33,144 bases of DNA from Candidatus Yanofskyibacteriota bacterium. GTDB taxonomy: Bacteria > Patescibacteriota > Minisyncoccia > 2-02-FULL-40-12 > GWA2-44-9. The notes under the pieces are model-generated. The model was not told where the DNA came from. It made no database searches and saw only the letters and a program-made list of their open reading frames with translations. Position numbers and translations under genes: made by a program. Shown here piece by piece: positions 23,018 to 26,345 of this stretch; the first letter of the stretch is position 1, and the number at the start of each line of letters is the position of its first letter. The stretch lies in NCBI GenBank assembly GCA_016185505.1, contig JACPNL010000008.1:1-33144 (forward strand). The letters run 5' to 3'.

Positions 23018-23614
23018 TTACTTGAACTTCTCAAGAACCTTAAAGTCATCTATAAGCTCCTGCTTCCTGCTACTATCATACACCGCCACCGCAGGATGAT
23101 AAAGAGGGATTATTTTAATTGAGCCGTAGTTAGTTCGGGCATCGAATATCTCGCCATGCATTTTGTTTATAGCGGTTATTGCATTGTCTAGGCCAAATTT
23201 TCTCATCACATAATCCATTGAGAACCGACCAAGCGTGGCGATAACTTGCGGCTGAATTATATCTATCTGCCTGTCCAGAAAAGGAGAATAAATTGTAATT
23301 TCCTCCGGTAGAGGGTCCCTGTTGGCAGGGGGCCTGTCTTTGACAATATTTGTAACATAAACATCTTTTCTGTTTATTCCAACAGAGGCCAACAGTTCAT
23401 CAAGTATTCTGCCGGAAGCGCCGCAAAAAGGCCGGCCAGTTGCCGCCTCATTCCTTCCGGGCGCTTCGCCTATAAACATAATTTTAGCATAATGACTCCC
23501 CTCGCCGATAACCGGAAAGACGTTGTTCTTAATTCTTTCTTTATAGAGAGGCGAGGATTTAAGAGCTAGAACCTCCTCTTTTATCTTACGGAGTTGTTCA
23601 GTTCGATTATCCAT
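23018..23614 (-). CDS. Uracil-DNA glycosylase (family 4-like)
   Basis: IMFIGEAPGRNEAATGRPFCGASGRILDELL, YVTNIVKDRPPANRDP, LYHPAVAVY. Confidence 0.9.
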   Translation of the reverse strand: MDNRTEQLRKIKEEVLALKSSPLYKERIKNNVFPVIGEGSHYAKIMFIGEAPGRNEAATGRPFCGASGRILDELLASVGINRKDVYVTNIVKDRPPANRDPLPEEITIYSPFLDRQIDIIQPQVIATLGRFSMDYVMRKFGLDNAITAINKMHGEIFDARTNYGSIKIIPLYHPAVAVYDSSRKQELIDDFKVLEKFK

Positions 23615-23730
23615 CCCGTACGAAGTAGCTGCTGCGCAGTTATAGAACTACCGGTTGGATGCGCAGGACTACTGTTGTTATATATTGACACCCCGTTCGT
23701 ATAACCTGTTAGGGCTACTTCGTTCGGGAT
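23613..23730. repeat. 118-bp inverted-repeat element covering the 5' end/leader of the UDG gene
   Basis: ATCCCGTACGAAGTAGC ... GCTACTTCGTTCGGGAT, 16 of 17 bp paired. Confidence 0.75.
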
Positions 23731-23777
23731 CCACGAAAATAATTCTATAAAATAAAACCTACAGAATCAAATAACAA

Positions 23778-23823
23778 ACAGACCGACATAAAATAGGCAA
23801 TTGCCTATTTTATGTCGGTCTGT
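23778..23823. repeat. Perfect 46-bp palindrome
   Basis: ACAGACCGACATAAAATAGGCAA|TTGCCTATTTTATGTCGGTCTGT, no spacer. Confidence 0.93.
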
Positions 23824-23840
23824 GAAATATGAACTTAAGA

Positions 23841-23894
23841 TAAAAATTAAAAGAGGGGCGACCCATGTTGAGCTAAGCTCGATGGTGTCGCCCC
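23841..23894 (-). terminator. Strong Rho-independent terminator of the 53-aa gene
   Basis: Minus: GGGGCGACACCAT...ATGGGTCGCCCC then TCTTTTAATTTTTA. Confidence 0.85.
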
Positions 23895-23907
23895 ATGGCG
23901 TTGCGGT

Positions 23908-24069
23908 CTATCCGCGCGATGAACTGCGGTGAGTCACCACGCGGCTGTGGTAACACTTGCCACGGGCCGTGCACGCACCCGTGCGCGTGTGACCGATACG
24001 GCCACGGATACGCGCCTTGTCAGTCTTCTCAAACTTGACCGCTTGCTGTCTTTGTTTCTTCCCGGACAT
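23908..24069 (-). CDS. Unlisted 53-aa strongly basic protein
   Basis: MSGKKQRQQAVKFEKTDKARIRGRIGHTRTGACTARGKCYHSRVVTHRSSSRG*; AAGGAGGTGA SD at 24077-24086, consensus promoter, terminator. Confidence 0.85.
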   Translation of the reverse strand: MSGKKQRQQAVKFEKTDKARIRGRIGHTRTGACTARGKCYHSRVVTHRSSSRG

Positions 24070-24098
24070 GATTCCCTCACCTCCTTGATTGTGTTTGT

Positions 24099-24127
24099 AT
24101 TATATCACCTATCGCCAACAATGTCAA
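24099..24127 (-). promoter_or_regulatory. Consensus sigma70-type promoter for the 53-aa gene
   Basis: Minus: TTGACA - TTGTTGGCGATAGGTGA (17) - TATAAT. Confidence 0.88.
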
Positions 24128-24207
24128 CCCCGCACTATAACAAGCATATAACTCCCGGCCGATTGTCATTATCGGACATATTTAGTTCGCAACACAAAAA
24201 ACTAAAA

Positions 24208-25794
24208 CTAAGGAGTTTGTTCTAGGTCGTTTTCTGAAAAGCGCTTGTTGGGTGACGGGGCTAGGGCCCCAAGAAGCGCAAGCGCTATCCAGAATACAAA
24301 TCTCCCCTGCTGGAGAGTAAGCAGAAAATGATCAAAAAGACCGATGAGCAAAATACCAACAACCAACAACCAACAACCAACAACTTTTTTAGAAAAAGAG
24401 TTTGTTAAAATAAATATCAAAAACAACAAAAACAGCGCGAACCCGATGATACCTATCTCCTTGTGCACAAGCAGATAAATATTGTGAACCGGCTGATACA
24501 TATAACTTGGCAGGTTGGGATTCTGCTCCATCAGCCAGCCGGTAAAGTCCCCCAGCCCGATGCCGAATAAGTTGATGCCGCCTTTCAACGACTCTTCGTT
24601 ATAAAAAATTCGCAACTGTACTGCCTCTTCTTCCGAAGAGAGCGTCATTCTACTCTGAACTTCTGGCCAATATAGGAAAGAAAAAGCCCCGACAACAATA
24701 AAAGTAACCAAAACTAAAGCAACCACCCTGTGGATAAACGACTTGTCCCGATTCGTTTTCAACGAATCGAGGATCCTCGATTTTATAATCACCGCTTTGC
24801 GGTGAATAAAATCAGGACGAAGTCGTTTATCCACAGGTGACAGTGTTTTTGAGCCAGCCCAGATATTCATCGCGATAATTACCAAAAAACCGACTCCCCA
24901 AAGAAAAATAATTGTCCGCGAAAAGGTAAAAAATAATCCAAAAAGCAAAATTGGATAAACCCCCACCCACCAATATTTTAAAATTTTATGATATATCATA
25001 GTATCATAAAATTTCCGTTCACTATGATACACCATCGTATCATAGTGTTTGTGCCCGCCGCTCCTGATCTGATAAATAAAAATAAAATAGAAAGCGAAAA
25101 TGGAGAGGAACAAATACGCCGCCAGAACATTCGGGTGCGGGGTCGTGCCGTAAGCCCTGATTATTTTCAAGCCCGAATCAATAAACTCTTCGACGTTGCT
25201 CAGGGTAAAGAAAGACGCAACTCCCGTCATGTGTGGGCCAAAGACACTTTCACCAAGCCATCTTAAACCCAAATCGCCTTGCTTCAAGAATTGTCCGATA
25301 GCAATGGCCGCCTGGAATGCGCCGCCAATTATTAAAGCGTAAAACGCTCCGATAAAACCAAATCTCCGTATCGCGTACATCTTTAAATAAAAATAAAACA
25401 GCGCAAATTCAACCAACTTGAGCCACAAAAACGCGCCAACATAAAAATCCGATGAATTTTTGACAGAAATTGCCGCCACCGCTAAAAATCCCAGTAGAAA
25501 CCAGTCATACCTGTGGATAAACGACTTGTCCCGATTCGTTATCAACGAATCGAGGATCCTCGATTTTATAGTCACCGCTTTGCGGTGAATAAAATCGGGA
25601 CGAAGTCGTTTATCCACAGCCCAGAAGATAAACAGGGCTAACAAAACTAGGTCTGTCGCATAGACACTGATGCTTTGCCACTCATTGTAATACCACCCGG
25701 GGGAATATAAAATTTTACGCGTCTGGAGCGGAATCGCAAAAAAGAGTAAATAAAATAAAAATTGTTCGAGTTTAGACGACATCAATATTCCCAA
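24208..25794 (-). CDS. O-antigen ligase / polymerase (Wzy/WaaL-like) membrane protein
   Basis: 528 aa multi-TM; YGTTPHPNVLAAYLFLSI, GIGLGDFTGWL, YQPVHNIYLLVHKEIGIIGFALFL. Confidence 0.85.
   Translation of the reverse strand: MGILMSSKLEQFLFYLLFFAIPLQTRKILYSPGWYYNEWQSISVYATDLVLLALFIFWAVDKRLRPDFIHRKAVTIKSRILDSLITNRDKSFIHRYDWFLLGFLAVAAISVKNSSDFYVGAFLWLKLVEFALFYFYLKMYAIRRFGFIGAFYALIIGGAFQAAIAIGQFLKQGDLGLRWLGESVFGPHMTGVASFFTLSNVEEFIDSGLKIIRAYGTTPHPNVLAAYLFLSIFAFYFIFIYQIRSGGHKHYDTMVYHSERKFYDTMIYHKILKYWWVGVYPILLFGLFFTFSRTIIFLWGVGFLVIIAMNIWAGSKTLSPVDKRLRPDFIHRKAVIIKSRILDSLKTNRDKSFIHRVVALVLVTFIVVGAFSFLYWPEVQSRMTLSSEEEAVQLRIFYNEESLKGGINLFGIGLGDFTGWLMEQNPNLPSYMYQPVHNIYLLVHKEIGIIGFALFLLFLIFILTNSFSKKVVGCWLLVVGILLIGLFDHFLLTLQQGRFVFWIALALLGALAPSPNKRFSENDLEQTP
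24356..24384. repeat. Heptamer tandem repeat (CCAACAA)x4 inside the O-antigen ligase gene
   Basis: CCAACAACCAACAACCAACAACCAACAAC; encodes VVGCWLLVVG on minus. Confidence 0.85.
24727..24837. repeat. 111-bp palindromic (cloverleaf-like) element, copy 1, in-frame in O-antigen ligase
   Basis: CCTGTGGATAAACGACTT...AAGTCGTTTATCCACAGG; encodes PVDKRLRPDFIHRKAVIIKSRILDSLKTNRDKSFIHR. Confidence 0.95.
25510..25620. repeat. 111-bp palindromic element, copy 2, in-frame in the same gene
   Basis: Same sequence with about 4 differences; encodes (A)VDKRLRPDFIHRKAVTIKSRILDSLITNRDKSFIHR. Confidence 0.95.
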
Positions 25795-26345
25795 TAGACC
25801 CTGATGATATCTTCGCCGGTATGTTTAATCTCCAATTTACTGCCGCCAAATGAGGATTTGAGCTTCTTGCCTATTCTAACCGCGAGCTGATTTTCGGAAG
25901 TGAAAATGCGCAGACCGTCTTGCCTATTTTCCATCCACAATATCCTGTCCATCGGATCCAATTCTTGCCCCTGCTTGTCGGAATTTTTTATGGTATTCAA
26001 AACATCACTTTTTACTTTTTCATTTTTACTTTTTAATTTAATGATGATTTCACCCTCAAAGATCTTGTCTTTCTTCATCTTACAGGCCGGACATAGTTCA
26101 AAATTAACCCGCTTGCCGGGCTTAAAGTGTGCAACTTTTTCTTCTTCCAGCCGATTGTGCCAGGACTTATCAAAATAGACGCTCCCGCAATCGGAACACA
26201 AAATGAACTCCTTCCCCGCCAAGCCAAACTCGCTCTCTTCTTTGCGGGAACGCTGATGCCTCCGCCCGATCATACCGGTCTTAACGGCCATTTTTTTGTT
26301 TACCCCGTGACCTCTTGGTTTTACGGGGTTTGAGTTTTTCGCCAT
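25782..26345 (-). CDS. Zinc-ribbon protein resembling an NMD3-like N-terminal domain
   Basis: 187 aa; LCSDCGSVYF ... CPACKMKKDKIFEGEIIIKLK, two CxxC knuckles. Confidence 0.5.
   Translation of the reverse strand: MAKNSNPVKPRGHGVNKKMAVKTGMIGRRHQRSRKEESEFGLAGKEFILCSDCGSVYFDKSWHNRLEEEKVAHFKPGKRVNFELCPACKMKKDKIFEGEIIIKLKSKNEKVKSDVLNTIKNSDKQGQELDPMDRILWMENRQDGLRIFTSENQLAVRIGKKLKSSFGGSKLEIKHTGEDIIRVYWEY

Follow-up and report, generated by a model that had tools for sequence, protein, structure and literature searches.

Phage morons carry their own promoter and terminator, occur patchily between genes that adjoin one another in relatives, and deviate in base composition from their surroundings. Moron insertions are often found after portal genes. 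Several other described systems also bear on the locus reported here. Integron cassette arrays place a promoter ahead of interchangeable small ORFs, lambda bar-type minigenes consist of a start, one or two sense codons, and a stop, and the zinc-type ribosomal proteins bL31, bL33, and bL36, which exist in Cys and Cys-less forms, are tiny and basic. Phages are known to carry ribosomal proteins such as bS21 (PMC9723584), and tRNA clusters have been proposed as anti-defense systems (PMC12803027).

The gene analyzed here is a minus-strand ORF at positions 23908..24069 of the window (the whole stretch of DNA that was analyzed, 33,144 nucleotides). Its translation matches exactly the 53-residue product quoted in an initial annotation of the sequence. 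Recounting likewise bore out the basic composition (15 Lys or Arg against 2 Asp or Glu; predicted pI of 11.7) and the GC-rich character of the ORF (GC 0.60 versus 0.43 for the window). The reading frame is kept in homologs, with pN/pS values of 0.23 to 0.51 among the bacterial copies, and the ORF is thus conserved more than by chance, confirming that it is a real, conserved, very basic protein gene. Searches of Pfam, NCBIfam, PHROGs, PADLOC, the PDB, and Rfam with the gene or protein returned chance-level matches only, and INPHARED phages and PLSDB yielded no match to the family, in agreement with the annotation's statement that it recognized no family. Identity with a known ribosomal protein, which would have overturned that statement, was sought in Pfam and the PDB and was not found: the best matches were at chance level (uL23, E 0.6; L19e, E 0.12), and such a protein would be expected in essentially all relatives, yet the gene is patchy (carried by 4 of 45 genomes from its order). 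We also set aside a Planctomycetota match confined to a 22- to 24-residue stretch and judged spurious (L006), weak class-wide matches that were partial only (L011–L013), and three extra contigs from a broad N-terminal DNA pattern, which encode unrelated proteins (L145–L147).

Of the 27 other genomes in this GTDB family, three, one of them a Candidatus Yanofskybacteria, encode homologs of 45 to 46 residues that are 58 to 67% identical to the window protein, and 13 IMG/VR viral contigs encode 12 distinct related proteins. The bacterial homologs have their own promoters and Shine–Dalgarno sites, with terminator-like hairpins in at least two; strong Shine–Dalgarno sites precede both bacterial and phage copies. 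A general distribution across CPR bacteria was not upheld: the gene was found in 4 of 45 genomes of the order and in 1 of 389 phylum-wide (its own genome only). Sampling was partial, and a scan of a genome collection relied on narrow peptide patterns, so that prophages of other bacteria could carry copies that escaped notice. On these counts, the product cannot be a core ribosomal or nucleoid protein of CPR bacteria. The family, which we call HTRTGAC, is real, undescribed, and strongly conserved. An alignment of 16 members defines the core AxKFxxx[DN]KxxIxG[KR]VGHTRTGACTxxGxCYHG between a basic, variable N terminus and tail, with M1, F13, K18, T28, R29, G31, A32, and H41 invariant and pI values of 10.8 to 11.7. 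The initial annotation had suggested a metal site of the form C-x5-C-x-H-x5-H. Three of its residues, C33, C39, and H41, are indeed conserved, but conservation does not extend to H47 or to the C-terminal tail. H27, C33, and C39 are each present in 15 of the 16 sequences and H41 in all 16, so that four candidate Cys/His ligands are conserved, as in zinc-type small proteins; the likely metal set is H27-x5-C33-x5-C39-x-H41. The exception, L034, is missing H27, C33, and C39 together; it is possibly a diverged member or a spurious one. AlphaFold models from two alignments were of too low confidence (pLDDT 59 and 64) to bear out an RNA- or metal-binding fold; such low confidence is compatible with, and no proof of, a protein that folds on a partner.

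The signals around the gene bore out the initial annotation in nearly every respect. A σ70 promoter, TTGACA-17-TATAAT, matches consensus at 12 of 12 positions and has an extended −10 (TGA) (24099..24127, minus strand). Indeed, TTGACA-17-TGATATAAT is the sole exact extended-consensus match in the 681-kb genome (pattern TTGAC-N15-TGN-TATAAT), which supports this promoter being the strongest type in its genome. The full Shine–Dalgarno region that had been claimed, AAGGAGGTGA, was found ahead of the ATG (approximately 24076..24087, minus strand), the order being TATAAT, ACAAACACAATC, AAGGAGGTGA, GGGAATC, ATG. Downstream lies an intrinsic terminator, GGGGCGAC...GTCGCCCC followed by the T-rich tract TCTTTT (23855..23895, minus strand), the hairpin of which has a predicted energy of −27 kcal/mol (z −5.9). 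The promoter and Shine–Dalgarno site argue for strong transcription and initiation, and a high level of the protein may be inferred from them. One part of the argument for high expression failed. The Arg codons of the ORF are 4 CGT, 4 CGC, and 1 AGA, but in a comparison resting on the ribosomal-protein region of the same genome, the ribosomal-protein and elongation-factor genes use mostly AGA or AGG (181 of 281 Arg codons), the EF-Tu gene has CGT at 0 of 19 and CGC at 2 of 19, and a Shine–Dalgarno site is absent from most members of this set. In G000 the ORF deviates from the ribosomal-protein and EF-Tu genes in both GC and codons. The GC-rich codons and full Shine–Dalgarno site instead mark the gene as foreign-looking. 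Within a ribosomal-protein cluster of the same genome (L078), a repeated TGATATTTAATTTTTGAT-like sequence stands ahead of many genes.

The gene occupies an accessory slot (23615..24207, minus strand) that is filled in some relatives and empty in others. The slot is bounded on the left by a gene for an O-antigen-ligase-like membrane protein (24208..25794, minus strand; PF04932, E 4e-5, below the gathering score) and on the right by one for a member of the uracil-DNA glycosylase superfamily (23018..23614, minus strand; PF03167, 113.8 bits). These two genes are neighbors across the family, with a gap of less than 130 bp in most unfilled relatives; G003, also unfilled, has a 205-bp gap without such a promoter. 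The HTRTGAC gene lies between them in G000, G001, and G024, and in G016 it follows the ligase-like gene at the edge of a contig, with the glycosylase gene on another contig. Elsewhere the slot holds unrelated GC-rich ORFs: CPFRGDH in G002 and G020, both with a second ORF, RREGTK, and in G011; Lys/Arg/Ala-rich proteins in G007 and G019, between which BLASTP gave no alignment; and in G004 an acidic protein (pI 4.8). In all filled slots TTGACN-17-TA(T/C/G)AAT occupies almost the same position, and a GGGGCGAC-type terminator is present in most. Such a promoter was found in all but one of the large-gap genomes and in none of the small-gap ones. Different ORFs are thus served by a recurring promoter and terminator. 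Neither a recombinase nor an attachment site was identified at the slot. A search of the viral collection gave no relatives of the CPFRGDH or RREGTK cargoes, and the phage link is therefore limited to the HTRTGAC cargo.

Several further features were seen at this and other sites. Just downstream of the terminator, at window positions 23778-23823, is a 46-bp perfect palindrome (ACAGACCGACATAAAATAGGCAATTGCC...), the core of which occurs once in its own genome. G024 has this core three times, including once at its slot, and in G002 the corresponding place is taken by a different palindrome, whose core is GCAATTGC. Just upstream of the ligase-like gene, window positions 25782-26345 (minus strand) give an above-threshold match to NMD3 (PF04981), an archaeal and eukaryotic family of ribosome export factors. 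The other slot cargoes (L082, L085, L086, L089, L090, and L099), comprising the CPFRGDH, RREGTK, Lys/Arg/Ala-rich, and acidic proteins, are orphans with no Pfam family match. At other sites in these Paceibacteria genomes (L120, L132, L133, L134, L138, L140, L157, L168, and L175), strong promoters and Shine–Dalgarno sites precede GC-rich ORFs, several of which have no obvious relatives; such promoter-led ORFs may form a broader class of moron-like units.

The viral contigs carry phage-like genes, including those for portal, scaffold, primase, helicase, and RNA ligase. A tRNA or tmRNA gene is found within 500 bp of six of the 12 distinct phage copies, and five of these six copies are in tRNA clusters. 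Specifically, the gene is inside clusters of 16 to 28 tRNA genes in L025, L026, L027, and L029/L030, between two tRNA genes in L042, and ∼0.4 kb from a tmRNA gene in L028. When the gene was placed at random on the same contigs, an average of 1.9 of 12 copies fell this close to such a gene, against the six observed (p = 5e-5), a value to be read with the common tRNA order of L026, L027, and L029/L030, which are thus not fully independent cases. The phage-encoded tmRNA gene (L028:10482-10830) has a predicted tag of AEPEFARAA, and the gene that comes after it weakly matches a tRNA methyltransferase PHROG. The phage copies also have a distinctive leader. In eight of 12 (L024, L025, L026, L027, L028, L030, L036, and L042), a mini-ORF of ATG, one to three sense codons, and a stop lies 27 to 36 nt upstream, mostly with its own Shine–Dalgarno site, and in seven of these eight it is overlapped by a longer leader ORF of ∼8 to 14 codons with a Shine–Dalgarno site. 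No such mini-ORF preceded any of 192 control genes on these contigs, and the bacterial copies also lack it; the shuffle tail was 3e-8, with the distance and codon limits set after the pattern had been seen. The arrangement suggests control by ribosome loading or reinitiation.

Of the role first proposed, a nucleic-acid- or ribosome-binding protein, the phage relatives in tRNA clusters and near tmRNA back the general idea, and a core CPR role is not supported by the distribution. The remaining six phage copies lie away from RNA genes, and two adjoin portal genes: the gene follows the portal gene in L024 and L036 and in L036 precedes the scaffold gene. This placement, the very basic protein, and the Lys/Arg/Ala-rich, histone H1-like slot fillers of G007 and G019 would suit a chromatin-like DNA-binding, nucleoid, or packaging protein of phages and these bacteria. 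We consider that unlikely, given the enrichment in tRNA clusters and beside tmRNA, the invariant HTRTGAC core and Cys/His residues, which are unlike low-complexity H1-type tails, and, for a general nucleoid protein, the lack of the gene in most relatives.

A second alternative is a host-takeover or counter-defense factor that is only incidentally basic, directed for example at a tRNA-targeting nuclease or a host regulator, with the slot serving as a site for defense and anti-defense cassettes. A moron-like unit with swapped cargo would accord with this, as would the anti-defense role proposed for tRNA clusters (PMC12803027) and the RNA ligase genes ∼2 kb from the gene in L026 and L031. PADLOC gave no match for the window protein or four other cargo or homolog sequences, the G004 cargo is acidic and unrelated, and the slot mates point to no common function; we regard this explanation as quite unlikely.

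Transfer in the reverse direction, with phages capturing a ribosome-associated protein native to Paceibacteria, has precedent in the ribosomal proteins of phages (bS21; PMC9723584). The four bacterial copies, in three genera, adjoin the same gene, and a protein tree of bacterial and phage copies, which did not settle the direction of transfer, is compatible with such an origin. Against it, the gene is patchy in the family and unseen in other genomes of the phylum sample, and the bacterial copies are GC-rich in AT-rich genomes whereas the GC of the phage copies matches that of their own contigs, a contrast that favors transfer from the phage pool to a bacterium and leaves a native origin improbable. 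That the functional product is RNA is very improbable: the GC-richness, the strong promoter and terminator, and the strong folding of some slot ORFs are set against a reading frame kept in bacterial and phage copies alike (pN/pS below 1), folding near that of synonymous-codon shuffles (z −1.7 to 0.15 for four bacterial copies), and no Rfam match.

The reading that we prefer, at a probability of roughly 0.45, is that the gene is a moron-like unit for an RNA- or ribosome-binding, probably metal-stabilized mini-protein from the phage gene pool. The gene would be a self-contained transcription unit with a product of 45 to 53 residues that binds RNA or the ribosome, with a metal on H27, C33, C39, and H41 probably stabilizing it. 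The family would belong to the phage gene pool, in which phages often keep the gene in tRNA clusters and the multi-start leader would drive its production. Most simply, binding of rRNA, tRNA, or the ribosome would adapt or protect translation. Some related Paceibacteria, few in number, hold the gene in a strong-promoter accessory slot, where it would be transcribed alone and at a high level. A bolder version, possible but doubtful, makes the slot a Paceibacteria docking site, where a strong promoter serves unrelated small, mostly very basic genes exchanged between species, one cargo being a phage protein for taking over translation, which would bind the ribosome or tRNA and be controlled in phages via the conserved start-stop leader.

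The data thus describe a mini-protein family common to uncultured, tRNA-rich phages and ultra-small bacteria, with two unexpected results, the phage relatives in tRNA clusters and the interchangeable bacterial slot. If ribosome or tRNA binding is true, the protein would be a new and very small factor in phage control of translation. The slot is a concrete site for studying how Patescibacteria gain and swap accessory genes.

Compared with the systems described at the outset, the family is, like phage ribosomal proteins, small and basic, with phage and host versions and a translation-linked context (PMC9723584 and PMC13157829), but it has no ribosomal similarity in Pfam or the PDB and is not a core bacterial gene. 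It is as tiny and basic as bL31, bL33, and bL36, and the joint loss of the Cys/His set in L034 recalls their Cys-less forms; it differs from them in having no sequence match and a predicted ligand spacing of H-x5-C-x5-C-x-H. The leader mini-ORFs of the eight phage copies resemble lambda bar-type minigenes, but they sit at a fixed 27 to 36 nt before a small-protein start and are absent from the bacterial copies. The slot, in its promoter before interchangeable small ORFs, is similar to integron cassette arrays, from which it differs in that no integrase or attachment-site array was seen and each genome has one cargo unit. The closest likeness is to phage morons: the gene has its own promoter and terminator, is inserted patchily between genes adjacent in relatives, and deviates in base composition from its surroundings. 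Its window flanks are cellular genes, and a phage location is found only in the viral relatives; the unit is thus moron-like rather than a moron, housed in a chromosomal slot in which the same kind of promoter precedes unrelated cargo across species.
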